DNA of 64,000 nt, from the NCBI RefSeq assembly GCF_003382365.1, contig NZ_QTSU01000002.1, forward strand, positions 186,001-250,000, written 5' to 3'. Source of the stretch: Lysobacter silvisoli. Lineage in GTDB: Bacteria; Pseudomonadota; Gammaproteobacteria; Xanthomonadales; Xanthomonadaceae. Numbering within the stretch: position 1 is the first letter of the stretch; each line of letters begins with the position of its first letter. Made by a program: the position numbers and the translations under genes. A model generated the notes under the pieces. That model made no database searches and had not been told where the DNA came from. It saw nothing but the letters and a program-made list of their open reading frames with translations. This document shows, in pieces, positions 31,143 to 48,724 of this stretch.

Positions 31143-32309
<1,167 letters not shown>

Positions 32310-32581
32310 GCGTCACCGAGGGGAGTGAAAGACGTCCCGCGCGAGCAGCGGACCGCCGAAGCGGGCCGGGCGCGAGGGGGCCGCATTGTCGCCCATCGCG
32401 GCGGAGCGAGCAAAACCGCCCGTCCCCCGGCCGCCGCCGCAACGGCCGCGGCCAGACCCGGCAAAGCCCGCCGGCGCGGCCGGATAGGTCGTCCGGCCGC
32501 GGCCAGAGCCCGCCGCGCATGGGCGCTGGCGGCGCTTTCGCGCATACTCGCGGCCACTCCCGTCCGCCCAGGGACTGCCGC

Positions 32582-34201: not shown

Positions 34202-34267
34202 CCTGGCGCACGCTCCCGGCTTGGCCGTGACAGGCCCCATAAGCTATCGTGTCGGGCGGAGGACGCA

Positions 34268-35674
34268 ATGGCTGAAACCCGTAGTGCACTGGTAATCGAC
34301 GACGAGCGCGACATTCGCGAGTTGTTGGTCATGACGTTGGGCCGCATGGGCTTGCGCTGCGACACCGCTTCGAGCGTGTCGGAGGCGCGCAGCCAGCTCG
34401 CGCGCAACCGCTACGACCTGTGCCTCACCGACATGCGCCTGCCCGACGGCTCCGGCCTGGAGCTGGTGGCCGAGATCAGCCAGAAGCACCCCGACACGCC
34501 GGTGGCCATGATCACCGCCTTCGGCAACGTCGAGGCCGCGGTGGAAGCGCTCAAGGCCGGCGCCTTCGATTTCGTCGCCAAGCCGGTCGAGCTGACCGTG
34601 CTGCGCGACCTGGTCCGCCACGCGCTGGAACTCAACGAGGGCCGGCGCACGTCCGCCGACGCGGTCGCCTCGCGCCTGTACGGCGAATCGCCGGCCATGG
34701 CCAGGCTGCGCCAGACCATCGGCAAGGTCGCGCGCAGCCAGGCGCCGGTCTACATCGCCGGCGAGTCCGGCGTGGGCAAGGAACTGGTCGCGCGCACCAT
34801 TCACGCCGAAGGCGGCCGCGCCAGCGGCCCGTTCGTGCCGGTCAACTGCGGCGCGATCCCGGCCGAGCTGATGGAAAGCGAATTCTTCGGCCACAAGAAG
34901 GGCAGCTTCACCGGCGCCCACGCCGACAAGCCCGGCCTGTTCCAGGCCGCCGACGGCGGCACCCTGTTCCTCGACGAAGTGGCCGAACTGCCGCTGCCCA
35001 TGCAGGTCAAGCTGCTGCGCGCGATCCAGGAAAAATCGATCCGCCCGGTCGGCGCGCAGGCCGAAGTGGTGGTGGACGTGCGCATCCTCTCGGCCACGCA
35101 TAAAGACCTGGCCGCGCTGGTCGCCGACGGTCGCTTCCGCCAGGACCTGTACTACCGCATCAATGTGATCGAACTGCGCGTGCCGCCGCTGCGCGAACGC
35201 CTGGACGATCTGCCCGGCCTGGCCAGCAAGGTGCTCGAACGCCTGGCCGGCGCCCAGGGCCGGGTGGTGCCGCGCCTGGGCGAGGACGCGCTGGAGGCCC
35301 TGCGCGCCTACGCCTTCCCGGGCAACGTGCGCGAGCTGGAGAACATCCTGGAGCGCGCCCTGGCCCTGGCCGAAGGCGAGGTGCTCAACGCCGCCGACCT
35401 GCGCCTGCCGCGCCTGTCCACCCAGGCCCCGCCGCCCGCTCCGGGCGCGCCGCCGGCGGCCGCGCCGGCCGCCGCGGCCGCCGTGGACCCGCGCACCATG
35501 AACCCGCGCGACACCTCCACCAGCGCCCTGCCCTCGTACATTGAAGAGATCGAACGCGCCGCCATCCAGCAGGCGCTGCAGGAAAACCGCTACAACAAGA
35601 CCCGCACCGCGGCCGCGCTGGGCATCACCTTCCGCGCGCTGCGCTACAAGCTCAAGAAGCTGGGCATCGACTGA
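34268..35674 (+). CDS. pilR: Sigma-54-dependent response regulator PilR
   Basis: 468-residue NtrC-type activator. The receiver domain (residues 5-120) has its phospho-Asp in LCLTDMRLPDGSG. The AAA+ domain has Walker A GESGVGKELVAR near residue 165 and the sigma-54 contact loop written GSFTGAH instead of GAFTGA, as in other PilR proteins. Walker B is GGTLFLDEVAELPL. An Ala/Pro-rich linker (about 383-412) precedes a Fis-type helix-turn-helix, NKTRTAAALGITFRALRYKL. It is preceded by GGCGGAGGA. It should activate the -24/-12 promoter found upstream of the pilins in this window. A perfect palindrome forms its stop region. Confidence 0.95.
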   Translation: MAETRSALVIDDERDIRELLVMTLGRMGLRCDTASSVSEARSQLARNRYDLCLTDMRLPDGSGLELVAEISQKHPDTPVAMITAFGNVEAAVEALKAGAFDFVAKPVELTVLRDLVRHALELNEGRRTSADAVASRLYGESPAMARLRQTIGKVARSQAPVYIAGESGVGKELVARTIHAEGGRASGPFVPVNCGAIPAELMESEFFGHKKGSFTGAHADKPGLFQAADGGTLFLDEVAELPLPMQVKLLRAIQEKSIRPVGAQAEVVVDVRILSATHKDLAALVADGRFRQDLYYRINVIELRVPPLRERLDDLPGLASKVLERLAGAQGRVVPRLGEDALEALRAYAFPGNVRELENILERALALAEGEVLNAADLRLPRLSTQAPPPAPGAPPAAAPAAAAAVDPRTMNPRDTSTSALPSYIEEIERAAIQQALQENRYNKTRTAAALGITFRALRYKLKKLGID

Positions 35675-35713: not shown

Positions 35714-36427
35714 TCAAATCCGCGCCACGCCGACCCATCCGGCGCTCAGCATCGGCGTCGCCCATTCCAGCAGGTTGACGCCCGCCTGGAATCCGCGCAC
35801 CGCCAGCCGACCTGCCGCGCCGCTGCGCTCGATCATTTCGTCGAAACGCGCGCCATAGGGCGACAGCGAATGCAGCTCGATACCGGCGCGGTCGAACAAG
35901 GTCCGCAGTGTCTTATAGGAATAGATCTGCAGATGGTCGGGGTGGGTGGACTCGCGCCCGGCCAGGCCGATGGCGATGTTGTGCCAGCTGCAGGCATTGG
36001 GGGTCGAGAACACGAACTCCACCCCTTGCAGTTCCGGGCAGGCTTTCAGGCTGCGCAGGAAGCCCAGGGTATCGGGCAGGTGTTCGATCAGCTCGCCCGC
36101 CACGATCAGGTCCGGCTGGCCGTAGCGCGCCACGCTGTCGCCCAGGGCGAAGATGTCGGCCTGGACGATCCGGCCATTGGGGCGCGTGGCCAAACCCCCT
36201 TGCGGCACCAAGGCCGAGTTGTCGATGCCGATCACCTCGCGCGCGACCGCGCACAGGCGCGAATGCAGCCACAGGCCCTTGTCCTGCTTGGCGCCGTAGG
36301 CGGTTTCGTCCAGCGCGCCCAGATCGAAGACGCGCTTGCCGTGCGCATGCGCTTCGATCTGGCTCAGGCGGTCGCGGGGCCTGGGCACCTTCACGCGTTC
36401 CAGCGCGGTATAGCTCAGTGGCTGCAT
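35714..36427 (-). CDS. SAM-dependent methyltransferase, class I
   Basis: 237-residue soluble methyltransferase. The SAM-binding loop is atypical (KRVFDLGALDETAYGA) but is followed by the acidic strand EVIGIDNSAL, the ADIF strand and the post-motif PDLIVAGELIEHLPDT, as in ubiquinone/sugar methyltransferase-like proteins. HPDHLQIYSYKTLRTLFDRAG is typical of polysaccharide-locus methyltransferases. It is the last gene of a minus-strand set with another methyltransferase and two GT2 enzymes, 11 nt downstream of the former. It may methylate a sugar or lipid-linked glycan. The substrate is unknown. Confidence 0.75.
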   Translation of the reverse strand: MQPLSYTALERVKVPRPRDRLSQIEAHAHGKRVFDLGALDETAYGAKQDKGLWLHSRLCAVAREVIGIDNSALVPQGGLATRPNGRIVQADIFALGDSVARYGQPDLIVAGELIEHLPDTLGFLRSLKACPELQGVEFVFSTPNACSWHNIAIGLAGRESTHPDHLQIYSYKTLRTLFDRAGIELHSLSPYGARFDEMIERSGAAGRLAVRGFQAGVNLLEWATPMLSAGWVGVARI

Positions 36428-36438
36428 GTGGGCTCGGT

Positions 36439-37080
36439 TCAGGGGACGCTGACGCGCATCAGGTAGTTGGGGCGGTCGCGGGCCAGCAAACCGATTTCGG
36501 TCGCGTCCGTATCGGGCGATACGCGGCGCAGCAGTTCGGCCAACTGCGCCGACGCCACCAGCACCACGCCGCGATCGCCGCTGATGTACTTGTCGGCCAG
36601 GTAGCCCAGGGTGGCGCGGTAGTGACCCGGCTCAACGTCCTTGATCAGCAAGGGCGCGCTCGGACGCAGCGCGTCCATGACCGCACGCAGGAAATCCTCG
36701 CGCTGGTCCAAGGCGACGTGATGCATGACGTCGACCACGATCGCCGCGTCGTACTTGCGCGACAAGCCCGACAGATGATCCTGAATCGTGGTCGCCGGAA
36801 TCCTGGTTACGCGCTCGGCGGCGTCCGGCCGTAGAAACCGACCCACGCTGGCCGCCACGTCCACCATGGTCACGCGCAGGTCGGGCCGGCGCGCGAACAA
36901 CCTATTCAGCAGTTCGCCGTCGCCGCCGCCGATGTCCAGCACGCTCGCGTCCGCCGGCAAGGCGCCGGCCAGCGCGTCGGCCACTCGGTCCAGGTCTACG
37001 AAGATCGCGCGGTAGGCATTGGCCGCCGCGCGCTCAAGCCGCGCCGGCATGCAGGCCCGCAGCACAGGACCGATCCTCAT
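36439..37080 (-). CDS. SAM-dependent methyltransferase
   Basis: 213-residue class I methyltransferase. Motif I is ASVLDIGGGDGELLNRLF near residue 47, then RVTMVDVAASVGRFL, and the motif AAIVVDVMHHVALDQRED resembles those of O- or C-methyltransferases acting on glycans or small molecules. The ATG at 37080 follows the GT2 stop by 25 nt and is the first ATG in frame after that stop. With its neighbour it may decorate the product of the adjacent glycosyltransferases. Confidence 0.78.
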   Translation of the reverse strand: MRIGPVLRACMPARLERAAANAYRAIFVDLDRVADALAGALPADASVLDIGGGDGELLNRLFARRPDLRVTMVDVAASVGRFLRPDAAERVTRIPATTIQDHLSGLSRKYDAAIVVDVMHHVALDQREDFLRAVMDALRPSAPLLIKDVEPGHYRATLGYLADKYISGDRGVVLVASAQLAELLRRVSPDTDATEIGLLARDRPNYLMRVSVP

Positions 37081-37105
37081 CGCCGCTCCATCGTCGTCAT
37101 CGGAT

Positions 37106-38125
37106 TCATTCGTCGCGCAACAGGGGGTGTACGGCCCGTTTGGGCACCGCGGAAATGTCGTAAGCCAGGAACCCCAGCAGCAATTGGATACCGACGATGA
37201 TCTGCAAAGCCGCCAGCATGACGCTGCCGGCGCTGGTCGGCACGCCGCTGCGGAACGACTCGATCCAGAAACCCAACCCCATCGCGAAACCGACGGTGAC
37301 GAACAGGGCACCGAAGGCCAACTCGATCGACGCCAGCGACAGGTCGCGCAGGAAGTAGTTGTAGAACACGCGCTTGCAGGTGTTGCGCAGGTGCTTGAAC
37401 AGGAAATCGAACAGGATCTTGGAGATGCGCAGGTTGCTGGTCTCGGCGCCGTAGCGCGCGTCCATCGGCACGTCCACCACCACCGCGCGCACGATGTTGA
37501 GCCGGAACAGCATGTCGGTCTCGAAGAAATAGCGCGGGCTGATCTTGCGCAGCGGCAGCTTGGCCACCAGCTTGGCGTGGATCGCGGTGTAGCCGTTGGT
37601 GGGATCGAACAGGTCCCAGTAGCCGGACGAGATCTTGGTCATGAACGACAGCATGGCGTTGCCGAAGATGCGCAGCTTGGGCATGCGGCCGATCTGGGCC
37701 AGGTCGTAGAAGCGGTTGCCCTTGGTGTAGTCGGCGTCGCCGCGCAGGATCGGGCCGACCAGCTGCGGCAGCGCCGCGCCTTCCATCTGGCCGTCGCCGT
37801 CCATCTTCACCACCACGTCGGCGCCGTCGGCGGCCGCGCGCGCGTAGCCGGCCATGACCGCGCCGCCCACGCCGCGGTTGACCTCGTTGTAGATCACCTG
37901 CACGCGCGGATCGCGGCAGTGCTCTTCCACGTACTGCCCCGAGCGGTCCGGGCAGGCGTCGTCCACCACGTAGATGCGCCAGACCATCGCCGGCACGTCC
38001 TCGATCACGCCCAGGATGTGCTCGCGCACGCGATAGCAGGGCACCACCACGGCGATGCGCGGCGGCTCGGCTTGCGCCTGCGGCGTGAGGCCGATGGAAG
38101 CGACGGGGTCGGCGTAGGGCTGCAT
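37106..38125 (-). CDS. GT2 glycosyltransferase, polyprenyl-phosphate sugar synthase-like (DPM1/GtrB type)
   Basis: 339 residues. The GT-A fold opens RIAVVVPCYRVREHI, with nucleotide-binding YVVDDACPDRS, NRGVGGAVMAGYARA and the metal site VVKMDGDGQM. DLFDPTNGYTAIHAKL is the acceptor-side block of the dolichol-phosphate-mannose-synthase-like group. Two C-terminal membrane segments (ALFVTVGFAMGLGFWIESF; LAALQIIVGIQLLLGFLAY) anchor it, as in GtrB-like enzymes. It probably charges undecaprenyl phosphate with a sugar on the cytoplasmic face. Its ATG overlaps the upstream GT2 stop by one base (TGATG). Its proximity to GT-C-like genes beside the pilins suggests a donor role (inference). Confidence 0.82.
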   Translation of the reverse strand: MQPYADPVASIGLTPQAQAEPPRIAVVVPCYRVREHILGVIEDVPAMVWRIYVVDDACPDRSGQYVEEHCRDPRVQVIYNEVNRGVGGAVMAGYARAAADGADVVVKMDGDGQMEGAALPQLVGPILRGDADYTKGNRFYDLAQIGRMPKLRIFGNAMLSFMTKISSGYWDLFDPTNGYTAIHAKLVAKLPLRKISPRYFFETDMLFRLNIVRAVVVDVPMDARYGAETSNLRISKILFDFLFKHLRNTCKRVFYNYFLRDLSLASIELAFGALFVTVGFAMGLGFWIESFRSGVPTSAGSVMLAALQIIVGIQLLLGFLAYDISAVPKRAVHPLLRDE

Positions 38126-38919
38126 CAGGCGGCGCCGGCGTAGGACAGGCGGTAGGCGCGCGCCAGCACGCGCGCGATCGGCCGCGGCCACAGGGAATCG
38201 AACATCATCTGGTCCTCCGCCGCGCGCACGCCCTCGCGCACGCCTGCGCTGGTCTCGCTGCCGGGATGGATACGGTGCAGCATCAGCTGCTCGCGAATGT
38301 ACACGAACGCGCCCGGCTCCCGCGCGCGCCGCACCCAGGCGTCCCAATCCAGGTTCACGCGCAGATCCTCGCGGAAGCGCGGCGCCGCGGCGCCGCGCGC
38401 CAGGGTCACTGACGGGCAAGGGATCGGACAGCCGAAACGCAGCGCACGCAGCTTGGCCCCGGGCGCCGCGATCGCCTCGCGCCCCAGGAACGCCAGCTCC
38501 AGCAGCAGGCGCTTGATCCGCAGCATCGCGGTGCCGGCGCGGGTGACCTCGCTGTCGCCCAGCAGCTCGGCATAGCCGGTGAACAGCAGCGCAGCATCCG
38601 GCCGCGCCTGCGCCGCCGCCAAGGTGCGGCGGGTGAAATCGGGCAGATAGATATCGTCCTGGTGGGCGACGGTGACCCAGGGCGTGGCGGCCTGGGCCAG
38701 GGCCTGGTTCCAGTCGCGGCCGATGCCGCCGTTGGGGCCGTGCACCGCCAGGTCGGCGCCGAACTCGCGCGCCAGTTCGGACAGGCCGTCGTAGGGCGTG
38801 GAACTGGCGATGTGCAAACGCGAGGCCTGCGTCTGCGCGCGCAGCGACTCCAGGCAAGCGCGCAAGTGCGGCGAGCGGCCGTAGGCGGGGACGACGAAGG
38901 AATGCAGCGGTTCCGACAC
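38125..38919 (-). CDS. GT2 family glycosyltransferase
   Basis: 264-residue cytoplasmic GT-A enzyme. HSFVVPAYGRSPHLRACLESL at the N-terminus, GGIGRDWNQALAQAATPWV and VTVAHQDDIYLPDFTRRTL carry the nucleotide-sugar and metal-binding parts (QDD acting as DxD). A conserved LDWDAWVRRAREPG block follows. It resembles side-chain transferases of O-antigen or capsule loci. No ATG fits; a GTG at 38919 begins exactly before the first beta strand, 11 nt after the stop of the small membrane protein. The sugar is unknown. Confidence 0.8.
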   Translation of the reverse strand: MSEPLHSFVVPAYGRSPHLRACLESLRAQTQASRLHIASSTPYDGLSELAREFGADLAVHGPNGGIGRDWNQALAQAATPWVTVAHQDDIYLPDFTRRTLAAAQARPDAALLFTGYAELLGDSEVTRAGTAMLRIKRLLLELAFLGREAIAAPGAKLRALRFGCPIPCPSVTLARGAAAPRFREDLRVNLDWDAWVRRAREPGAFVYIREQLMLHRIHPGSETSAGVREGVRAAEDQMMFDSLWPRPIARVLARAYRLSYAGAA

Positions 38920-38930
38920 GGGTGCGGCGC

Positions 38931-39311
38931 TCAGGAACTCTGCCCTACCGACGCCAGCAACAGCACCCCGGCCGACACCAAGGCCACGCCGACCCACTGC
39001 GTCGGGGTCAGCCGCTCGCCGTAGACCAGCCAACCCGCGGTGGCCATCAGGATGTACATGGTGGCGCCGGAAATGGCGAAGGCCATGCCGAGCTTGACCC
39101 GACTGACCACGACGACCCAGATGGTGAAGCCCATGCCCTGGACGGCGATCGCAGCCAATACGCCCGGCGACAGCATCGCAGACATCAGCCAGTCCAGGCC
39201 TTTCAAATCGGGACTGCGCGCGGCCAGCTGCAGCAAGGCGCGCTTGATCAACAACTGGCTGCCGATGGTCGAGCAGCTCACGAACAGAATCATCAGTATT
39301 TCGCGGATCAC
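38931..39311 (-). CDS. Small DMT/EamA-type membrane protein
   Basis: 126-residue, four-segment inner-membrane protein of the drug/metabolite transporter superfamily (EmrE/ArnE size class). Segments: ILMILFVSCSTIGSQLLIK, MLSPGVLAAIAVQGMGFTIWV, LGMAFAISGATMYILMATAG and WVGVALVSAGVLLLASVG. The pattern GMAFAISGAT.YI resembles the SMR pattern. In this operon a flippase-like role for a lipid-linked sugar, as proposed for ArnE/ArnF, is attractive but unproven. The start is uncertain: a GTG at 39311 follows a G-rich Shine-Dalgarno; TTG at 39323 or ATG at 39293 are alternatives. Confidence 0.72.
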   Translation of the reverse strand: MIREILMILFVSCSTIGSQLLIKRALLQLAARSPDLKGLDWLMSAMLSPGVLAAIAVQGMGFTIWVVVVSRVKLGMAFAISGATMYILMATAGWLVYGERLTPTQWVGVALVSAGVLLLASVGQSS

Positions 39312-39524
39312 CCCTGCCCCCAAAACAACGGCCCTGTCATCGCCACCGCGCCCACTCTCCGGCGCACATGCGACACCTTAGTATGCAAGCTCGACCCGCG
39401 CTGGGCGCCTCGCCCACTGCGGAGCTGGGACCGCCGTCGCGCTTGACCGACCCAGCCCTACCCCTGCCGGACCAGCTCGCGGCGGCCTACTTGGAACGAT
39501 TCGAAGGTACCCGGATACACGATG

Positions 39525-39647: not shown

Positions 39648-39663
39648 TTGGCATGGCTTATGC
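39648..39663 (+). promoter_or_regulatory. Sigma-54 (-24/-12) promoter of pilA1
   Basis: TTGGCATGGCTTATGC matches the RpoN consensus, with GG and GC exactly 12 nt apart. It lies 100 nt upstream of the pilA1 ATG. PilS-PilR encoded 4 kb away is the expected activating system, as in Pseudomonas pilA. Confidence 0.8.
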
Positions 39664-39762
39664 GTATGCTTTTAGCGCACGTGCAGTTCCGCACGGCAAG
39701 CCGACGGACCGCAAAGCCGGGCCAAAAGGCACGTGAAGTTCACCACTCCTAGGGGAAACACC

Positions 39763-40191
39763 ATGAAGAACAACCAGCAAGGCTTCACCCTGATCGAACT
39801 GATGATCGTGATCGCGATCCTCGGCATCCTGATCGCCATCGCTCTGCCGGCCTACCAGGACTACTCGATCCGCACCAAGAACTCCGAATGCCTGAACGTC
39901 GCCGCGGCCGCCAAGCTGGCCGTGTCCGAAACCGCTCAGGACCGTGGTTCGCTGGGCGTCGTGACCCAGGCCAACACCGGCTACAACTTCACCGCCAGCG
40001 ACTACTGCAACTCGGTCGCCATCGCCAACGGCGGCACCATCACCGCCGTGACCCGCAGCACCGGCGGCCCGGCCACCACCTTCACCCTGGCCCCCAGCAC
40101 CGCCAGCAACAGCGGCCGCATCGACTGGACCTGCTCGGCCACCGGTATGGCCAACCAGTCGCAGCTGCCGGGCGAGTGCCGCGCCCCGTAA
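39763..40191 (+). CDS. pilA: Type IV major pilin, first copy
   Basis: 142-residue prepilin. A short leader MKNNQQG is cleaved by PilD before [20 protein letters not shown], with the conserved Glu at position 5 of the mature chain. The N-terminal helix continues to about residue 55. The globular part has four Cys (in SECLNV, SDYCNS, WTCSATG and GECRAP). The last two probably form the C-terminal disulfide loop. The Ser/Thr-rich stretch [20 protein letters not shown] offers O-glycosylation sites. RBS AGGGGAAACACC precedes the ATG. It is driven by a sigma-54 promoter and followed by a hairpin before a paralogous pilin. Confidence 0.95.
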
Positions 40192-40220
40192 TTGGTTTCA
40201 CGGTAGTAACGCAACATCGA

Positions 40221-40247
40221 GAAACCCCGGTTCGCCGGGGTTTCTTC
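40221..40247 (+). terminator. Hairpin between the two pilin genes
   Basis: Perfect stem GAAACCCCGG / CCGGGGTTTC with a TTCG tetraloop, followed by TTCT. It lies 29 nt after the pilA1 stop. The short pyrimidine tail suggests partial termination, which would favour pilA1 mRNA over pilA2. Confidence 0.7.
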
Positions 40248-40255
40248 TGAAAGGC

Positions 40256-40276
40256 CTGTTGCAATGCCCGCAACAG
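40256..40276 (+). other. Second stem-loop upstream of pilA2
   Basis: Perfect arms CTGTTGC and GCAACAG around AATGCCC, followed by TTTC, 74 nt upstream of the pilA2 ATG. It could stabilise a processed pilA2 transcript or be part of a pilA2 control region. There is no clear promoter in this gap. Confidence 0.4.
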
Positions 40277-40350
40277 TTTCAGGACCACCCCCCTGTCGGT
40301 CCGCAACGCCATTCGGCTCGCGACTCTTGTGTCCTGCTGAGGGACCGACC

Positions 40351-40776
40351 ATGAACAGACAAAACGGTTTTACCCTGATCGAACTGATGATCGTCATTGC
40401 GATCCTCGGCATCCTGATCGCCATTGCCCTGCCGGCCTATCAGGACTACTCGATCCGCACCAAGAACGCCGAGTGCCTCAACGTCGCGGCCGCCGCCAAG
40501 CTCGCCGTCGGCGAAACCGCACATTCGGCCGAAGGCTTGTCGCTGATCACCACCACCAACACCGGCTTCACGTTCACCGGCAGCGATTACTGCCAGTCGA
40601 TCCAGGTCCAGAACGGCGGCTCGGTGCGTATGGTGACCCGCAGCACCGGCGGCCCGGTGACTACGTTTACCCTGCTGCCCAGCAGTGGCTCGAACACGGG
40701 CCGGATCGAGTGGACTTGCAGCGCTACCGGACAGGCGAACGAGTCGCAGCTTCCGGCCGAGTGCAGGACCCCGTAA
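40351..40776 (+). CDS. Type IV pilin, second copy
   Basis: 141-residue prepilin, leader MNRQNG then [20 protein letters not shown] with Glu5. Residues up to the end of the spine helix are almost identical to the first pilin, and the four Cys are kept (AECLNV, SDYCQS, WTCSATG, AECRTP). The globular face differs (for example [13 protein letters not shown] versus [13 protein letters not shown]). It arose by tandem duplication. It is preceded by GCTGAGGGACC. It may be a second major subunit or a minor component; expression relative to the first is probably set by the hairpins between them. Confidence 0.94.
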
Positions 40777-40792
40777 TTTCAGACATCCTTAG

Positions 40793-40834
40793 TGCGCATG
40801 CGCCCCTGCCGGGGCCATGCGCATTTTGCTTTTT
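40793..40834 (+). terminator. Rho-independent terminator after the second pilin
   Basis: Outer stem TGCGCATG (40793-40800) / CATGCGCA (40816-40823), with an inner GCCCC/GGGGC stem, followed by TTTTGCTTTTT. It ends 31 nt before the first membrane glycosyltransferase gene, which must depend on read-through or its own promoter. Confidence 0.85.
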
Positions 40835-40865
40835 GCACCCCAAGTAACCGCCCGTAGGAATACGA

Positions 40866-42752
40866 ATGCGCCAAAAATTGCCGCTGATTCTGCTACTGCT
40901 GTTGACTGCGGCGATCTATTGGCAGGGCCTGTCCGGCCCGTTCCTGTTCGACGATGGCTGGAACTTCACTGCGTTGTTCGCCTGGGCGAAGGGCAAGGCG
41001 ACCTGGCAGGAGGTGGTGCTGGGCAACGGATCGCTGCTGCTGGCCCGCCCGGTTGCGATGGCGAGCTTCCTGCTCACGACCTGGCTGGGCGGCGTCGATC
41101 CGTTCTCGTTCAAGCTGGGCAACCTCGCGGTGCACCTGGCCTGTGGCGTGCTGGTGTGGGCGGTCGCCCGCCGCGCACTGACCGAGGACCCGCGCCTGGC
41201 TATGCATGCCAACGCGCTGGCGATCGTCGCCGCTGCGTTCTGGCTGCTGCACCCGCTGCAGGTCAGCACCGTGCTGTATGCGGTACAGCGCGCGGCGCAG
41301 CTGAGCACGCTGTTCGTGCTGGCCGCGGTCTGGACCTACCTGATCGCGCGCCGGCAGCTCGCCCAAGGCGCTACGCGCCGCACCGCCATGCTGTTGTTCC
41401 TGCTGTTTCCGCTGATCGTCGTCGCGGGCCTGCTCAGCAAGCAGAACGCCGCCATCGCGCCGCTGCTGTGCCTGGTGCTGGAGTTGGCTTATTTCCGTGG
41501 GCAGTCTGCCTCGCGCGCCGTGCTCTGGCCTTTCTTCGGGCTGAGCCTGGGCCTGCCGGCGGTCCTGGCTGCAGGCTTGCTCGCGTTCGCGCCGGACAAG
41601 CTGCTGGGCGGTTATGCGGAGTGGGGCTTTACCCTGGGCGAGCGCCTGCTGACCCAACCGCGCGCGCTATGCGACTACCTGGCGATGCTGTTGATACCGC
41701 GCAGCCCAGCCATGGGCCTGTACACCGACGATTTCGCGGTATCGACCGGCTTGATGGCGCCGCCGAGCACCCTGGCGGCGATCCTGGCCCTGCTGGCGAT
41801 CAGCGCGGCGGCCATTGCGGTGCGCAAACGCGCCCCTACGGTGTTCGCCGGCTGGTTCCTGTTCCTGGCCGGCCACGCCGTGGAGTCCGGCTTCCTGCCG
41901 CTGGAGATGTACTACGAGCACCGCAACTACCTGCCTTCGGCCGGGGTCATGCTCGCTTTGGTCGCCCTGTTCGCCCAGGTCGGCGCCCGCTTGCGGACCA
42001 ATGTGCTGTCGACCCGGCAACTGGGACTACTGGCCGCCGGCACTTTCGGCCTCGTTTTGGCCTTCGCCACCTTCGGCAGGGTAATGGTGTGGCAGAAAAT
42101 CGAAACCGTGGTCGCCCAGGGCCTGCGTTTCCATCCGCAGTCGCTGCGCGCCAACTTCGACCGCGCGGTGCTGGCCCTGCAGGCCCAGGACTACGCCACC
42201 CACCAGTTGATCATGCAACATCTGCTGCGCAGCCCCGATCCGCGCAACCGGTTGCTCGCGCAGATCAACCTGATCACCGGCAGCTGCCTAAAAAACTCCG
42301 ATGCCGACCCGGCCGATCTGGACCGTCTGGTTCCTGCATTGCAGCCGCAGATCACCATCTTCGAAATGTCGTCGCTGCAATTCCTCGCCGACACCACGCA
42401 GAGCCGCGGCTGCGGACGGATCAGTAACAGCCGCCTGGCCGCGAACTTGCTGCAGCTGACCGACGCCACGCCGAACCAGGCCGATTCGGCGATGCCGAAG
42501 TGGCGCACACGCTATATGGCGGCCGACCTGTATGCCATGGACCGCGACTTCGCCAAATCCGAAGCCCTGGCGGCGTCGCTGTGGGAGCCCAGCGGCCATG
42601 ACATCCAGGTGGGGCTGTTGCTGGCTTGGTCCCAGGCCAAGCAGGGCAAGCGCGAACAGGCGCAGCGCATGATCGAAACGCTGGATGCGACGATCAAACC
42701 CTACGACTCCAAGCAGCGCCGCGAACTGGCGATGGTACGCAGCGCGCTCTGA
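40866..42752 (+). CDS. Multi-spanning GT-C-like protein, candidate pilin glycosyltransferase (copy 1)
   Basis: 628 residues. About ten or more membrane segments fill residues 1-410, and a soluble helical (TPR-like) periplasmic tail follows. GPFLFDDGW at residues 24-32 puts an Asp-Asp pair in the first outer loop, the catalytic signature of GT-C enzymes that use lipid-linked sugars. YYEHRNYLPSAGVML near 348-362 resembles the conserved block of TMTC/O-mannosyltransferase-like proteins. LLHPLQVSTVLYAVQRAAQ and VAGLLSKQNAAIAPLL are shared with the next gene. Its place directly after two pilins is that of TfpO/TfpW-type pilin glycosyltransferases. A tail of A/Q-rich helices may bind the pilin. Assignment to a named family is uncertain. 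Confidence 0.7.
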   Translation: MRQKLPLILLLLLTAAIYWQGLSGPFLFDDGWNFTALFAWAKGKATWQEVVLGNGSLLLARPVAMASFLLTTWLGGVDPFSFKLGNLAVHLACGVLVWAVARRALTEDPRLAMHANALAIVAAAFWLLHPLQVSTVLYAVQRAAQLSTLFVLAAVWTYLIARRQLAQGATRRTAMLLFLLFPLIVVAGLLSKQNAAIAPLLCLVLELAYFRGQSASRAVLWPFFGLSLGLPAVLAAGLLAFAPDKLLGGYAEWGFTLGERLLTQPRALCDYLAMLLIPRSPAMGLYTDDFAVSTGLMAPPSTLAAILALLAISAAAIAVRKRAPTVFAGWFLFLAGHAVESGFLPLEMYYEHRNYLPSAGVMLALVALFAQVGARLRTNVLSTRQLGLLAAGTFGLVLAFATFGRVMVWQKIETVVAQGLRFHPQSLRANFDRAVLALQAQDYATHQLIMQHLLRSPDPRNRLLAQINLITGSCLKNSDADPADLDRLVPALQPQITIFEMSSLQFLADTTQSRGCGRISNSRLAANLLQLTDATPNQADSAMPKWRTRYMAADLYAMDRDFAKSEALAASLWEPSGHDIQVGLLLAWSQAKQGKREQAQRMIETLDATIKPYDSKQRRELAMVRSAL

Positions 42753-42776
42753 ACGGAGTGCGGCCGAACGATCGCC

Positions 42777-44705
42777 ATGTCCGCCGCACGAGTCCCGATG
42801 CCGCTCCCCGACTCACGTTGGGACTTCGCCAGGTGGCTGCTGGTCGCTGCGACGCTGGCAGCCTTTGTGCTGTACGCGCCCGGGCTGCAGGGGCCTTTCC
42901 TGTTCGATGATCCGGCGAATCTGGCCGTGCTCAGGGCCTGGTACAACGGCCAGGCCGATTGGCGGACGGTCGTGCTGGGCCAAGGCGGCCTGATCGAAGC
43001 GCGACCGCTGTCGATGCTGAGCTTCCTGGCGACCGTCGCAGCCGGCGGCCCGGGGCCGCTGTCGTACAAGGCCGGCAACCTGTTGCTGCATGCGGCCTGC
43101 GCCGCGCTCGGGTTCCGCCTGCTGAGCCGGACGCTCGCTCAGGACCCACGTCTGGCGCCGCAAGCGCGCGCATTGGCGGCGATCGCCGTTGCGCTATGGC
43201 TGTTGCACCCCATCCAGGTCAGCACCGTGCTATATGCGGTGCAGCGCATGGCGCAACTCAGCGCGCTGTTCGCACTGGGCGCCGTGCTGGCCTACTTCCT
43301 CGCCCGGACCCGACTGACTTCGCGAGCGCGGGACCGGACCGCCATAGCGCTGTTGTTCGCCGCCTTTCCTTTGCTGGTCGTTGCCGGCGTACTCAGCAAG
43401 CAGAACGCGATCGTCGCCCCACTGTTGTGCCTGGCATTCGAGCTGGCCTACTTCCCCGGCAAGCGCCCCCTTGCGATACGCCTGTTCTTCGGCCTGTTCC
43501 TGGCCTTGCCGTTCGTGGTGGCGCTGCTGGCGTTCGCGGCGGCGCCGCAGACGCTGCTGCGGGGTTATTCGGACTGGGGATTCTCGCCGGACCAACGCCT
43601 GCTGACCCAGACGCGCGTGCTAATGGACTATGCCGGCTCGCTGTTGTGGCCGCGCGGCGAGCATATGAGCCTGTTCCGCGACGATTTCGTTATCTCCGTG
43701 GGCCTATTCGCTCCGGCGACGACCGCCCTGGCCATCGCCGGCCTGCTGGCCTTGAGCGCACTCGTGGTCGAATTGCGCCGACGCGCACCCAGCCTTTTCG
43801 CGGGCTGGTTCTTCTTCCTGCTCGCTCATAGCGTCGAATCCAGCGTGCTGCCGCTGGAGATGTACTACGAACATCGCAACTATCTGCCCGCATTCGGTCT
43901 GGCGTTGGCCCTGGTCGGGACACTGGCGCTGTGGCCGCGACGTGGCGCAGCGGGCCTGCGGCTCGCGCCGCTGGCCTGGTTCGCCACCGCCGCCTGCTTG
44001 GTACTGGCCCTACAAACCTACGGCCGCGTGCAGACCTGGCGCAGCAAACCGGCCATCGTCGCCAACGCCCTCATCCACCACCCCGAGTCGCTGCGAGCGC
44101 GCCAGACCCAGGCTTTCATCGACTTGGCCGAAGGCCGTACGGACGCGGCGCTGGCCCAGATGCACCGCCTGCAGCGCAGCGCCCAGCCCCGCACGCGCCT
44201 GCTGGCGCGGATCGACGCAGTGTCCATCGCCTGCCTGGCGGGACGCCCAGCCGATCCGTCCGAATTGACGCGGGCGCTGACCGATGCCCAGGCCAAGGTA
44301 ACCCTGGACGAGGTGCTGGTCGTCGACTTGCTCGCCCAAGCCTCCGCGGGCGATCGCTGCCCCGGGGTCGCCTCGCCGCAGGTGTCCGCACTGGTACTGG
44401 GTTTGTTGCGCGCCGCCCCGACGCAGGACCCGGCCGCCCATCCCAGGCGACAACTGCACCTGATCGCGGCCCTGGTCCTGGCCCGCTCCCAGGACTGGGC
44501 CGGAGCCCAGGCCCAGGCCGAAGGTGCCTGGACCACCCAGGCGCCGCTCGAGGTCGCCGACGTGCTGGTCCAAGCCTATCTGGCCAACGGACGTCGCCAG
44601 GACGCCGAGCGCGTGCTGCGGCAAATACAGGCGCGCACCCGCCCCTACGACCGCGCCGGCCAGGCCCTGATCGCCCAGCTGCGTGGCCGCATTCAGACCC
44701 ATTGA
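42777..44705 (+). CDS. Multi-spanning GT-C-like protein, candidate pilin glycosyltransferase (copy 2)
   Basis: 642 residues, clearly paralogous to the preceding protein along its length. GPFLFDDPANL has Asp44-Asp45 in the first outer loop. LLHPIQVSTVLYAVQRMAQ, VAGVLSKQNAIVAPLL, GYSDWGFSPDQRLLTQTRVL and YYEHRNYLPAFGL (near 360) match its partner. The hydrophobic part ends near residue 425 and a helical, Ala/Arg-rich repeat-like tail of about 200 residues follows. It begins 24 nt after the first copy and is probably cotranscribed. Whether both modify both pilins, or each one pilin or sugar position, cannot be told. The upstream ribosome-binding site is weak. Confidence 0.7.
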   Translation: MSAARVPMPLPDSRWDFARWLLVAATLAAFVLYAPGLQGPFLFDDPANLAVLRAWYNGQADWRTVVLGQGGLIEARPLSMLSFLATVAAGGPGPLSYKAGNLLLHAACAALGFRLLSRTLAQDPRLAPQARALAAIAVALWLLHPIQVSTVLYAVQRMAQLSALFALGAVLAYFLARTRLTSRARDRTAIALLFAAFPLLVVAGVLSKQNAIVAPLLCLAFELAYFPGKRPLAIRLFFGLFLALPFVVALLAFAAAPQTLLRGYSDWGFSPDQRLLTQTRVLMDYAGSLLWPRGEHMSLFRDDFVISVGLFAPATTALAIAGLLALSALVVELRRRAPSLFAGWFFFLLAHSVESSVLPLEMYYEHRNYLPAFGLALALVGTLALWPRRGAAGLRLAPLAWFATAACLVLALQTYGRVQTWRSKPAIVANALIHHPESLRARQTQAFIDLAEGRTDAALAQMHRLQRSAQPRTRLLARIDAVSIACLAGRPADPSELTRALTDAQAKVTLDEVLVVDLLAQASAGDRCPGVASPQVSALVLGLLRAAPTQDPAAHPRRQLHLIAALVLARSQDWAGAQAQAEGAWTTQAPLEVADVLVQAYLANGRRQDAERVLRQIQARTRPYDRAGQALIAQLRGRIQTH

Positions 44706-44852: not shown

Positions 44853-46580
44853 ATGTCTAGCGTCGCGACCGCCAACTTGGTGGGAATCACCGGCATTGCC
44901 CGGCGCTTGGTGCTGGATGGTGCCCTGGAGGAATCCGCGGCCCGCGAGGCCATGACCGGCGCCACCAGCGAACGCAAGCCGATCGCGACCTACCTGGCGG
45001 AAAAGCGCCTGGTCAGCGCCAGCCAGCTGGCGGCCGCCAACTCCATCGAGTTCGGCGTGCCGATCTTCGACGCCAGCGCGCTGGACGCCTCGCAGTCGGC
45101 GGTGAAGCTGGTCAACGAGGAACTGATCCGCAAGCACAACGTGCTGCCGCTGTTCAAACGCGGCAACAAGCTGTTCGTGGGCCTGTCCGATCCGACCAAC
45201 ACCCGCGCCCTGGACGAGATCAAGTTCCAGACCAACCTGGTGATCGAGGCCATCCTGGTCGACGACGACACCATCCGGCGCAGCCTGGACCAGTGGCTGG
45301 AGTCGGCCGACGCGTTGGGCGACGGCGTCACCGAAGAAGGCCTGGAAACCCTGGACGTCGGCGGCGGCGACGACGACCTCACGGCCGCCGGCGACAGCGG
45401 CGTGGACGCCAAGGGCGACGATACCCCGGTGGTGAAGTTCGTCAACAAGGTGCTGGTGGACGCGATCCGCCGCGGCGCCTCGGACATCCACTTCGAGCCC
45501 TACGAAACCGAATACCGCGTGCGCCTGCGCATCGACGGCATCCTCAAGCAGGTCGCCAAGGTGCCGGTCAAGCTGACTCCGCGCATCGCCGCGCGCCTGA
45601 AGGTCATGGCGCAGCTGGACATCGCCGAGAAGCGCGTGCCGCAGGACGGCCGCATCAAGCTCAACCTGTCCAAGACCAAGCAGATCGACTTCCGCGTCAG
45701 CACTCTGCCGACCCTGTTCGGCGAGAAGATCGTGCTGCGTATCCTCGACGGCAGCGCCGCCAAGCTGGGCATCGACAAGCTCGGCTACGAGGAAGACCAG
45801 AAAGACCTGTTCGTCGGCGCCGTGGTCAAGCCCTACGGCATGGTCCTGGTGACCGGCCCGACCGGCTCGGGCAAGACGGTGTCGCTGTACACCGCGCTGA
45901 ACATCCTCAACGACGACATGCGCAACATCTCCACCGTCGAGGACCCGGTCGAAATCCGCGTGCCGGGCATCAACCAGGTGCAGATGAACGTCAAGCGCGG
46001 CATGACCTTCGCCGCCGCGCTGCGCAGCTTCCTGCGCCAGGACCCGGACGTGATCATGGTCGGCGAAATCCGCGACCTCGAGACCGCCGAGATCGCGATC
46101 AAGGCCGCCCAGACCGGCCACATGGTGCTGTCCACCCTGCACACCAACGACGCGCCGCAGACCATCGCGCGCCTGATGAACATGGGCGTGGCGCCGTACA
46201 ACATCACCTCCTCGGTGACCCTGGTCATCGCCCAGCGTCTGGCCCGCCGCCTGCACGACTGCAAGCGCGAGGTCCACCTGCCCGAGCACGCGCTGCTGGC
46301 CGAGGGCTTCAGCCACGACGAGATCGTCGGCGGCCTGAAGGTCTACGAGGCCGGCGGCTGCCCGGACTGCACCGAAGGCTACAAGGGCCGTACCGGCATC
46401 TACCAGGTCATGCCCATGACCGAAGAGATCCAGGCGATCGTGCTGGAAGGCGGCAACGCCATACAGATCGCCGCCGCCGCGCAGCGTTCCGGCATCCGCG
46501 ACCTGCGCCAGTCGGCGCTGATGAAGGTGCGCAACGGCGTCACCAGCCTTTCCGAAATCAACCGCGTTACCAAGGACTAA
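44853..46580 (+). CDS. pilB: Type IV pilus extension ATPase PilB
   Basis: 575-residue GspE/PilB motor that drives pilus assembly. The N-terminal T2SSE_N domain (KPIATYLAEKRLVSASQLA) precedes a hinge with an Asp/Gly-rich linker (about 165-185). The ATPase core follows, with ASDIHFEPYE, Walker A GPTGSGKTVSLYTAL near 335, the Asp box and Walker B VIMVGEIRDLETAEIA, and the His box VLSTLHTNDAPQTIARL. The zinc region reads RRLHDCKREVH...GGCPDCTEG, with a His where the first Cys is usually found. The 147-nt gap upstream contains a weak -24/-12-like TTGGCGTCATAACGGC (44749-44764). pilC follows after 3 nt. Confidence 0.96.
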   Translation: MSSVATANLVGITGIARRLVLDGALEESAAREAMTGATSERKPIATYLAEKRLVSASQLAAANSIEFGVPIFDASALDASQSAVKLVNEELIRKHNVLPLFKRGNKLFVGLSDPTNTRALDEIKFQTNLVIEAILVDDDTIRRSLDQWLESADALGDGVTEEGLETLDVGGGDDDLTAAGDSGVDAKGDDTPVVKFVNKVLVDAIRRGASDIHFEPYETEYRVRLRIDGILKQVAKVPVKLTPRIAARLKVMAQLDIAEKRVPQDGRIKLNLSKTKQIDFRVSTLPTLFGEKIVLRILDGSAAKLGIDKLGYEEDQKDLFVGAVVKPYGMVLVTGPTGSGKTVSLYTALNILNDDMRNISTVEDPVEIRVPGINQVQMNVKRGMTFAAALRSFLRQDPDVIMVGEIRDLETAEIAIKAAQTGHMVLSTLHTNDAPQTIARLMNMGVAPYNITSSVTLVIAQRLARRLHDCKREVHLPEHALLAEGFSHDEIVGGLKVYEAGGCPDCTEGYKGRTGIYQVMPMTEEIQAIVLEGGNAIQIAAAAQRSGIRDLRQSALMKVRNGVTSLSEINRVTKD

Positions 46581-46583
46581 ACC

Positions 46584-47837
46584 ATGTCCGCGACCCGCTC
46601 CGCGACCAAGCAGGCCCCCGCCCGCCGCCCCAACCCGCTCGAACTCTTCGTCTGGGAGGGCAAGGACAAGCGCGGCGTCGTCATGAAGGGCGAGCAGGCG
46701 GCCAAGAACGCCAACATGCTGCGCGCCGAGCTGCGCCGCCAGGGCATCACCCCCGGCACGGTCAAGCCCAAGGGCAAGCCGCTGTTCGGCGGCGCCGGCA
46801 AGCGCATCACCCCGCGCGACATCGCCATCTTCAGCCGCCAGATCGCGACCATGATGAAGTCCGGCGTGCCGATCGTGACCTCGCTGGAGATCATGGCCGG
46901 CGGCCAGAAGAATCAGAAGATGAAGAATCTGATCAACACGATCCGCTCCGACCTGGAAAGCGGCTCGTCCATGCACGAGGCGCTGAGCAAGCACCCGGTG
47001 CAGTTCGACGAGCTCTACCGCAACCTGGTCAAGGCCGGCGAATCGGCCGGTGTGCTGGAAACGGTGCTGGACACCGTGGCCAGCTACAAGGAAAACATCG
47101 AAAGCCTGAAGGGCAAGATCAAGAAGGCGCTGTTCTATCCCGCCACGGTCATAGCGGTGGCGATCCTGGTCTCGGCGATCTTGTTGATCTTCGTGGTGCC
47201 GCAGTTCCAGAAAACGTTCGAAAGCTTCGGCGCCGAACTCCCCGCCTTCACGCTGATGATCATCGCGGCCAGCGATTTCATGATCAAATGGTGGTGGCTG
47301 GTACTGTTCCTGGTGGTGGGCACGATCATAGGCTTCATCATGGCCAAGAACCGCTCGCCGGCCTTCGCCCATTTCCTCGACCGGATGATGCTGAAGATTC
47401 CGGTGGTCGGCCAGATCCTGCACAACTCGGCCATCGCCCGCTTCTCGCGCACCCTGGCGGTGACCTTCAAGGCCGGCGTACCGCTGGTGGAGGCGCTGGA
47501 CACGGTGGCCGGCGCCACCGGCAACGTGGTCTACGAGCAGGCCGTGCGCCGCATCCGCGACGACGTGGCCGTGGGCTACCAGCTCAACATGTCGATGAAG
47601 CAGGTCAACCTGTTCCCGCACATGGTCATCCAGATGACCGCGATCGGCGAAGAGGCCGGCGCGCTGGACACCATGCTGTTCAAGGTGGCCGAGTTCTACG
47701 AGGAAGAGGTCAACAATGCCGTCGACGCGCTGTCCAGCCTGCTCGAACCGCTGATCATGGTGGTGCTGGGCGTGGTGGTGGGCAGCATGGTCATCGGCAT
47801 GTACCTGCCGATCTTCAAGCTGGCCGCGACGATCTGA
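46584..47837 (+). CDS. pilC: Type IV pilus inner-membrane platform protein PilC
   Basis: 417-residue platform protein with two T2SSF domains. Each domain is a cytoplasmic four-helix part (for example FSRQIATMMKSGVPIVTSLEI; FSRTLAVTFKAGVPLVEALDT), and three membrane segments are present (TVIAVAILVSAILLIFVVPQF, WWLVLFLVVGTIIGFIM, IMVVLGVVVGSMVIGMYLPI). FELYRNLVKAGE-like motifs and MTAIGEEAGALDTML are conserved among PilC/GspF proteins. It lies between pilB and pilD, with spacings of 3 and 23 nt, in the order pilB-pilC-pilD. Confidence 0.97.
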   Translation: MSATRSATKQAPARRPNPLELFVWEGKDKRGVVMKGEQAAKNANMLRAELRRQGITPGTVKPKGKPLFGGAGKRITPRDIAIFSRQIATMMKSGVPIVTSLEIMAGGQKNQKMKNLINTIRSDLESGSSMHEALSKHPVQFDELYRNLVKAGESAGVLETVLDTVASYKENIESLKGKIKKALFYPATVIAVAILVSAILLIFVVPQFQKTFESFGAELPAFTLMIIAASDFMIKWWWLVLFLVVGTIIGFIMAKNRSPAFAHFLDRMMLKIPVVGQILHNSAIARFSRTLAVTFKAGVPLVEALDTVAGATGNVVYEQAVRRIRDDVAVGYQLNMSMKQVNLFPHMVIQMTAIGEEAGALDTMLFKVAEFYEEEVNNAVDALSSLLEPLIMVVLGVVVGSMVIGMYLPIFKLAATI

Positions 47838-47860
47838 CCGCTTAGGCTTATCCTTCGCGC

Positions 47861-48724
47861 ATGGCATTCCTGGATCAGAACCCCGGCCTCGGGTATCCCC
47901 TCGCGGCCGGCCTCGGGCTGTTGGTCGGCAGTTTCCTCAACGTGGTCATCCTGCGCCTGCCCAAGCGGCTGGAATGGCAGTGGAAGCGCGATGCGCGCGA
48001 GATCCTGGAGCTGCCGGAAATCTACGACCCGCCGCCGCCGGGCATCGTGGTCGAGCGCTCGCACTGCCCGCACTGCAAGCACCAGCTGAGCTGGTACGAG
48101 AACATCCCGGTCTTCAGCTACCTGTTCCTGCGCGGCCGTTGCCGCAGCTGCAAGACCCCGATCTCGCCGCAGTACCCGCTGGTGGAACTGATCACCATGC
48201 TGGCGGTGCTGGCCTGCGTCTGGCGCTTCGGCTTCGGCTGGCAGGGCTTCGGCGCGATCGTGTTCAGCACCTTCCTGATCGCGCTGTCGGGCATCGACTT
48301 CCGCACCAAGCTGCTGCCGGACCAACTGACCTTGCCCTTGATGTGGCTGGGTCTGGTGGCCAGTTCCGACAACCTGTATTTCCCGACCAAACCGGCCTTG
48401 CTCGGCGCGATGGCCGGTTATCTGAGCCTGTGGTCGGTGTGGTGGGTGTTCAAACAGCTCACCGGCAAGGAAGGCATGGGCCACGGCGACTTCAAGTTGC
48501 TGGCCGCGATCGGCGCCTGGGTCGGGCTCAAGGGCATCCTGCCCACGGTGCTGCTGTCCTCGCTGGTCGGCGCCATCCTGGGCTCGATCTGGCTGGCCGC
48601 GCGCGGCAAGGACCGCGCGACCACGATTCCGTTCGGTCCCTATCTGGCCATCGCCGGCTGGATCGTGTTCTTCTGGGGCGAGCTGATCCTGGGCGCGTAC
48701 ACGCAGTACGCCGGATTGCGCTGA
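47861..48724 (+). CDS. pilD: Prepilin leader peptidase / N-methyltransferase PilD
   Basis: 287-residue bifunctional aspartyl membrane protease that cleaves prepilins (and usually type II pseudopilins) and methylates the new N-terminus. The N-terminal domain has GSFLNVVILRLPKRLE and the zinc tetracysteine CPHCKHQLSWYENIP...CRSCKTPIS. Catalytic aspartates lie in GIDFRTKLLPDQLTLP and GMGHGDFKLLAAIGAW (GxGD type). About eight membrane segments. It should process both pilins encoded upstream. coaE starts 5 nt after its stop. Confidence 0.97.
   Translation: MAFLDQNPGLGYPLAAGLGLLVGSFLNVVILRLPKRLEWQWKRDAREILELPEIYDPPPPGIVVERSHCPHCKHQLSWYENIPVFSYLFLRGRCRSCKTPISPQYPLVELITMLAVLACVWRFGFGWQGFGAIVFSTFLIALSGIDFRTKLLPDQLTLPLMWLGLVASSDNLYFPTKPALLGAMAGYLSLWSVWWVFKQLTGKEGMGHGDFKLLAAIGAWVGLKGILPTVLLSSLVGAILGSIWLAARGKDRATTIPFGPYLAIAGWIVFFWGELILGAYTQYAGLR

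Follow-up and report, generated by a model that had tools for sequence, protein, structure and literature searches.

We describe a locus of Lysobacter silvisoli that is quite probably a dedicated glycosylation system for type IV pilin, made up of a lipid-sugar synthase, a flippase, and a periplasmic GT-C transferase, which would work like TfpW and have an architecture resembling that of the animal TMTC proteins. It lies in a stretch of 64,000 nucleotides (positions 186,001 to 250,000 of contig NZ_QTSU01000002.1, assembly GCF_003382365.1; hereafter the window), where two pilin genes, pilA1 and pilA2, are followed by genes for two long membrane proteins, A and B. The basis of this reading is a predicted GT-C fold, residue invariance, linkage to pilin genes across lineages, and repeated neighbors resembling lipid-sugar synthases; from these we infer the activity of A and B, together with its sugar, linkage, and sites. 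A preliminary description of the window, made from the sequence alone, had proposed that both proteins glycosylate pilin, and the computational tests reported here support that proposal as a prediction.

Results

Protein A (628 amino acids; 40866..42752, plus strand) combines, in its AlphaFold model (predicted local distance difference test score, pLDDT, 94.3), a core (residues ∼1–410) of 11 membrane helices with a tetratricopeptide repeat (TPR) solenoid (residues ∼410–628) of about six helical hairpins (12 helices), as counted in the predicted model. Its paralogue B (642 amino acids; 42777..44705, plus strand) has the same architecture, keeps the presumed catalytic residues in the alignment, and is 46% identical to A (282 of 615 positions). 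The blocks FLFDD, STVLYAVQR, LSKQNA, and YYEHRNYLP, which the preliminary description had picked out in both proteins, are indeed common to them and are kept across a large family, so they are not due to chance. That description had also suggested a GT-C nature and a structure-based comparison; when predicted models were compared using VIA-align, the cores of A and B fell among GT-C transferases, with STT3, PMT, and ArnT as the best solved matches, PglB and AglB also among the best, and no WaaL or PglL fold among the best 50 rows listed. On these models, the membrane domain of both proteins is predicted to have the GT-C (GT-CA) fold.

Across 67 family sequences, D29, R61, K83, N86, H90, Q141, R142, R162, K192, E206, Y271, P278, D288, E351, H352, R353, and Y355 are invariant, and all of them are also present in B. 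The acidic pair noticed earlier in the first outer loop is likewise kept in the first extracytoplasmic loop, since D29 occurs in 67 of 67 sequences and D30 is Asp in 66. What had been called a helical tail is a real TPR region: TPR families dominate the Pfam matches of the 67 full-length members (TPR_19 in 34 of 67 at E 0.1), and TPR chains dominate the best 60 of 309 rows when the whole-length family profile is run against the PDB. Non-TPR matches among the 25 of 45 matched Pfam families listed were weak (e.g., DUF6056 in 2 members, best E 0.0047). Predicted topology, read from the helices of the model and the charges of the loops, places the solenoid in the periplasm. Sequence searches were otherwise empty: Pfam and NCBIfam returned sub-cut-off TPR and chance-like names only for A and B, phmmer of the two against the PDB gave no match for one and a TPR-like match (E 0.44) for the other, the core-only family profile hit no PDB chain at E 10, and Pfam on 35 cores at E 0.1 returned six weak, scattered families, each in one or two members (E 0.008–0.083). 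The kinship with GT-C enzymes therefore rests on fold and motifs. Our literature search recognized no paper describing this GT-C/TPR family, and no relatives of A were found in plasmid and phage collections. One family copy, at G279:C1:1406351-1407692, is interrupted by several stop codons.

By these models, A and B share with TMTC1–4, the animal endoplasmic reticulum O-mannosyltransferases (PMC7801869), 11 transmembrane helices, a first outer loop that carries a DD, and TPRs at the C-terminus that face the outer side. The motifs listed there (DD, SHKSYRP, RxD, KE(T/Q)xxT, DW, PxxP, and ERxxY) were matched to A by eye, by order and loop, and key residues of six of the seven occur in order. The DD is whole (D29-D30); SHKSYRP retains only RP (R61 in 67 of 67, P62 in 58 of 67); RxD retains only R142, position 144 being A in 63 sequences, S in 2, and E in 2; the fourth motif is represented by K192, accompanied by E in 56 sequences and by Q in 11, but by no Thr; DW by D288 without Trp; and ERxxY by E351 and Y355, the Arg being shifted by one position toward the C-terminus. 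PxxP is absent, with HxxES (337–341) in its place. Spacing is similar, TMTC1 D52, R93, R167, K219, D330, and E403 corresponding to positions 29, 61, 142, 192, 288, and 351 of A (PMC7801869). TMTCs differ in having about ten TPRs (ibid.) as compared to about six hairpins in A, and in their acceptor, cadherin, as compared to the presumed pilin acceptor of A and B. DUF1736 (PF08409) had no match in the L. silvisoli genome at E 1 or in the 35 cores at E 0.1; it matched 0 of 349 genomes of a phylum sample at E 1e-6, a scan in which no control match appeared either. Of the earlier suggestion of a TMTC-like core, the architecture and the key residues of most motifs thus stand, but DUF1736 and one motif are missing, and because there is no PF08409 match we call A and B TMTC-like rather than TMTC. 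PMC7801869 names bacterial TMTC homologs and gives the transferase activity of the TMTCs themselves as undemonstrated as of 2021.

A search with A matched, at E 0.001, 120 of the 247 Xanthomonadaceae genomes, from 35 of 54 genera, and the family profile matched 82 of 274 genomes of a class sample (68 of 222 genera) at E 1e-30. A survey of co-occurrence with pilin, also proposed in the preliminary description, showed a pilin directly upstream in most relatives. Of 52 loci from a genome-contig scan, which were found via peptide patterns of B and were not selected for pilins, 41 from several lineages have a pilin gene directly upstream on the same strand, 48 contain some pilin-like frame, and 47 contain any of PilB, PilC, PilD, PilS, or PilR. 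The remaining 11 comprise L037, which starts at a contig end, and 10 loci of a single clade (Woeseiaceae-type, support 100/100). Twenty further picked Xanthomonadaceae loci, read by eye, all (20/20) have a pilin directly upstream. Among best-matching loci with short flanks, a pilin lies upstream in 27 of 29 within the family (some of these genomes are also among the 52 loci) and in 22 of 29 class-wide. The two misses within the family are L004, which ends at a contig end, and L017, which follows another GT-C copy; the seven class-wide misses include second copies behind another GT-C (L122 and L125) and a locus at a contig start (L118), the other four being L119, L127, L129, and L133. A pilin was upstream in 9 of 12 further stretches (L140-L151). 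Because the 4.5-Mb L. silvisoli genome has 16 pilin-like (N_methyl) sites, of which only pilA1 and pilA2 adjoin the A/B pair, adjacency by chance is rare. A strict one-GT-C-per-pilin rule fails, as loci range from three pilins with one GT-C (L038 and L040) to a lone pilin with a pair of GT-C genes (Halieaceae loci). Two Lysobacter relatives carry alternating arrays, of four pilins and three GT-C copies (L160:8669-17679) and of three pilins and three GT-C copies (L161:2992-11379), and a Coxiellaceae metagenome-assembled genome has a single GT-C gene flanked by a pilin on either side (L057:4529-7400).

The presumed acceptors are encoded by pilA1 (39763..40191, plus strand), whose product resembles a type IVa major pilin, and by the second pilin gene, pilA2 (40351..40776, plus strand); both match PF07963 and PF00114 over cut-off. 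As described earlier, the two pilins are alike (74% identity, 104 of 140) and have four Cys each, at identical mature positions (36, 75, 117, and 132). Ser and Thr make up 24.5% and 26.4% of residues from mature residue 30 onward, a content compatible with O-linkage. A terminator-like hairpin lies 3′ of pilA1 (40216..40256, plus strand; −21 kcal/mol, z −3.9, equaled by 1 of 200 shuffles), and a strong hairpin with a T-tract lies between pilA2 and A (folded stretch 40786..40840, plus strand; −29.3 kcal/mol, z −5.8, equaled by none of 200 shuffles), which bears out the terminator reported after pilA2; a simple terminator scan listed neither. The hairpin at 40786-40840 is probably an attenuator of the accessory genes. 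A terminator between pilin and accessory gene is known in Pseudomonas aeruginosa cassettes and in Xanthomonas campestris pv. vesicatoria (PMC11841053), and the window hairpins correspond to that layout. A sigma-54-like site upstream of pilA1 and near pilSR (39649-39664, plus strand) was rejected: with up to 3 mismatches the pattern occurs 135 times as compared to 199 expected, which is not above chance, so this candidate carries no meaning.

Overlooked in the preliminary description was a candidate donor-synthesis block between pilR and pilA1, divergent on the minus strand (35714-39323), with the order MT1-MT2-GT2syn-GT2b-EamA. GT2syn (37106..38125; PF00535) resembles polyprenyl-phosphate-sugar synthases, matching in the PDB the Pyrococcus furiosus dolichol-phosphate mannose synthase (DPMS; 5mlz, E 1.3e-13) and ArnC (E 2e-4) and in NCBIfam the AglJ and PpgS models below cut-off; hydropathy indicates hydrophobic helices at its C-terminus. 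GT2b (38125..38919; PF00535 over cut-off), whose start codon is uncertain, could lengthen or alter the donor. EamA (38931..39323; PF00892 over cut-off) encodes a small, ArnE-like membrane protein of the EamA/SMR type (130 amino acids), a presumed lipid-sugar flippase, for which ArnE, ArnF, and other SMR models scored below cut-off and EmrE was matched in the PDB (E 0.007). MT1 (35714..36427; PF13489) and MT2 (36439..37080; PF08242) encode S-adenosylmethionine-dependent methyltransferases, MT2 possibly methylating the donor sugar. Pfam labels of the block genes included no phosphoglycosyltransferase, Wzx, or arabinofuranose (Araf) pathway.

All ten loci picked for GT2syn (L152-L161) carry EamA-GT2b-GT2syn, in eight beside pilins, and GT-C is visible in seven of these eight (L154 ends first). 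Matches to GT2syn with at least 68% identity occur in 12 of 247 genomes, with GT-C within ∼4 kb in nine; in the other three, the parts lie at contig ends (G173), there is no GT-C match (G109), or the two are ∼79 kb apart (G220). Since weaker GT2 matches are found in 243 of 247 genomes at E 0.001, presence is uninformative and adjacency is what informs. A different GT2, found through weak similarity to GT2syn (20–33 bits), lies directly downstream of pilin-GTC(-GTC) in Halieaceae and other lineages, in 24 of the 50 loci whose sequence reached far enough (within 90 bases in 23, measured between stop-to-stop frames, and at 1.3 kb in one). The best PDB matches of those of L074 and L049 were ArnC, sll0501 (GtrB), and DPMS (E 1e-11 to 3e-18), and AglJ was the best NCBIfam model, below cut-off, for the four compared with that database. 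In 20 larger stretches, a same-strand GT2 lies downstream in 11 and on the other strand in L144, L152 and L153 carry the EamA-GT2b-GT2syn cassette, and no GT2 is seen in L134, L135, L138, L142, L145, and L150. By sequence, the linked GT2s would be polyprenyl-phosphate-sugar synthases, and the fact that one transferase family has two different kinds of synthase-like GT2 as neighbors argues that the transferase uses lipid-monophosphate sugars.

When 90 cores were placed in a tree, the 29 Lysobacter-type rows fell together (100/100), and the Halieaceae-type copies split into one group of 20 for first copies and another of 20 for second copies, so paired GT-C genes arose at least twice. The paralogues probably serve different sites, catalyze successive steps, or form a heterodimer.

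The gene order on the plus strand is pilS-pilR and, later, pilA1-pilA2-A-B-pilB-pilC-pilD-coaE. With pilS and pilR (32285..35674, plus strand; 6TM_PilS, HisKA, Sigma54_activat) at the upstream end and pilB, pilC, and pilD (44853..48724, plus strand; T2SSE, T2SSF, Peptidase_A24) at the downstream end, the A/B pair lies inside the pil cluster, with the glycan-donor-like block facing it. Several minus-strand frames in the 24–35 kb region were dismissed as wrong-strand, since plus-strand pilS and pilR occupy it. In three genomes (L157, L158, and L159) pilB is inverted between pilSR and the glycan block, apart from pilC and pilD.

Discussion

In the mechanism we propose, GT2syn would load a sugar onto undecaprenyl phosphate in the cytoplasm, GT2b, MT1, and MT2 may lengthen or methylate the lipid-linked sugar, and the EamA/ArnE-like protein would flip it. 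To judge by the fold and the invariant residues, the GT-C core of A or B would then bind the lipid-phosphate sugar in the periplasm via conserved K, R, E, and Y residues and a metal, and D29-D30 would position or activate a pilin Ser or Thr during the pilin's stay in the inner membrane, whereupon the sugar would be transferred. The TPR solenoid probably docks the pilin, and the hairpins after the pilins may hold enzyme levels below substrate levels.

TfpW, the pilin D-Araf transferase of Pseudomonas paraeruginosa Pa5196/PA7, is reported to be an active GT-C transferase (Kus 2008). Compared by gene layout and description, it resembles A and B as a cassette gene downstream of pilin, with a terminator after the pilin and a polyprenyl-phosphate pentose donor pathway in its system (PMC11841053, PMC12369383, and PMC11127046). 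The GT-C gene stands in this TfpW-style position in the window and in the 41 loci noted above; by contrast, the window block has, by its Pfam labels, a DPMS/ArnC-like synthase and an ArnE-like protein in place of an Araf pathway. The pilin oligosaccharyltransferases TfpO and PglL carry Wzy_C. Their presumed job is the same, as is the gene position of TfpO (PMC11841053), but none of the six families hit by any of the 35 cores at E 0.1 was Wzy_C (PF04932), and a TfpO-type kinship of A and B is not supported. The two over-cut-off Wzy_C matches of the L. silvisoli genome are on other contigs. ArnT, one of the best fold matches, transfers aminoarabinose to lipid A and is not known to be linked to pilin. 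It differs further in its 13 transmembrane helices and another periplasmic domain (PMC7801869). Three-component systems (GtrA/GtrB/Gtr; GT136 pentofuranose) likewise join a polyprenyl-phosphate-sugar synthase, a flippase, and a periplasmic GT-C, but the characterized ones in PMC11127046 decorate O antigen or wall polymers, whereas the window set is tied to pilins and its GT-C has a TPR domain. Of their features, a linked synthase is present here by similarity (all NCBIfam matches being below cut-off), and a small candidate flippase (EamA over its Pfam cut-off, the ArnE model below its own) is pilin-adjacent in the window and in the eight of ten chosen loci but was not found in L034-L103 or L134-L151.

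Several observations weigh against pilin glycosylation as the role of the family. Foldseek itself gave no match at E ≤0.001 and ranked TPR chains at the top. At E 0.001, A finds nothing in 127 of the 247 Xanthomonadaceae genomes, so the family is accessory. In 9 of the 10 Woeseiaceae-type loci, the GT-C gene adjoins coaE-pilD on the opposite strand instead of following a pilin, and L078 of that clade shows no pil gene beside GT-C. No pilin was seen for L119, L127, L129, and L133 even in larger stretches, nor upstream of GT-C in the stretches read for L144, L145, and L148. A same-strand GT2 directly downstream is absent from 26 of 50 loci, and an EamA relative, searched for in L032-L103 and L134-L153, is present in L032, L033, L152, and L153 only, which leaves the lineages of L034-L103 and L134-L151 with no flippase candidate.

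Transfer to lipid A or to polysaccharide is also compatible with the GT-C fold, as in ArnT and polysaccharide-modifying enzymes, and A and B could modify a periplasmic acceptor other than pilin (be it lipid A, O antigen, or a different protein of the envelope) and lie in the pil cluster only by coincidence. Consistent with this, a GT2 is kept without an adjoining pilin in L136, L137, L144, and L148, and the EamA-GT2b-GT2syn unit occurs without GT-C or pilin in the stretches examined of L155 (8055-12270, minus strand) and L156 (6039-8233, plus strand), where it may serve another acceptor. We consider this explanation unlikely, given the same-strand pilin directly upstream in 41 of 52 loci of several lineages and a TPR tail that would suit a protein acceptor. 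Alternatively, A and B could be oligosaccharyltransferases using, as TfpO and PglL do, a diphosphate-linked oligosaccharide instead of a monophosphate-linked sugar; the presence of STT3, PglB, and AglB among the best structural matches fits this, and GT2b could extend a glycan, yet the linked GT2s resemble makers of monophosphate-lipid sugars, the 35 cores scanned show no Wzy_C match, and the block carries no Pfam label for a phosphoglycosyltransferase or Wzx, which makes this alternative improbable. TfpX, TfpY, and TfpZ occupy the same place in pilin cassettes, and the TPR domain suggests protein binding, so that A and B might be non-enzymatic pilus assembly accessories, TfpY-like in function, on a retained GT-C scaffold. 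This is very unlikely, since at least 14 polar or charged residues are invariant in 67 of 67 sequences, including D29 and a Lys matching the phosphate-binding Lys of TMTC, and donor-synthase-like genes are linked repeatedly.

Returning to pilin glycosylation, a fuller proposal, to which we give about an even chance, is that this is a new and widespread TMTC-like GT-C family for pilin O-glycosylation, in which the core glycosylates, the TPR region selects the pilin, and the pairs, having arisen independently in Lysobacter and Halieaceae, form a machine of two enzymes, or a heterodimer, that a linked synthase supplies. Pilin-linked glycosyltransferases as such are known; what is new here is the family with its wide occurrence and its combination of pilin linkage and TMTC-like architecture, together with the donor block.

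To our knowledge, few enzyme types dedicated to glycosylating pilin have been described, namely TfpO/PglL and TfpW. With a GT-C family that has no Pfam model of its own, occurs in 82 of the 274 class-sample genomes, and is mostly pilin-adjacent, the decoration of pilins would become a common trait. In Pseudomonas, glycans on pilin shield against pilus-specific phages (PMC11841053 and PMC12369383), and the family can thus be regarded as a testable surface-defense trait. It would also provide a simple bacterial model for TMTC, reconstitutable from one synthase, one GT-C, and one small pilin. If the fuller proposal holds, the animal TMTC system would have a bacterial counterpart in these proteins, and Gammaproteobacteria would perhaps have in them their most frequent dedicated route of pilin glycosylation.
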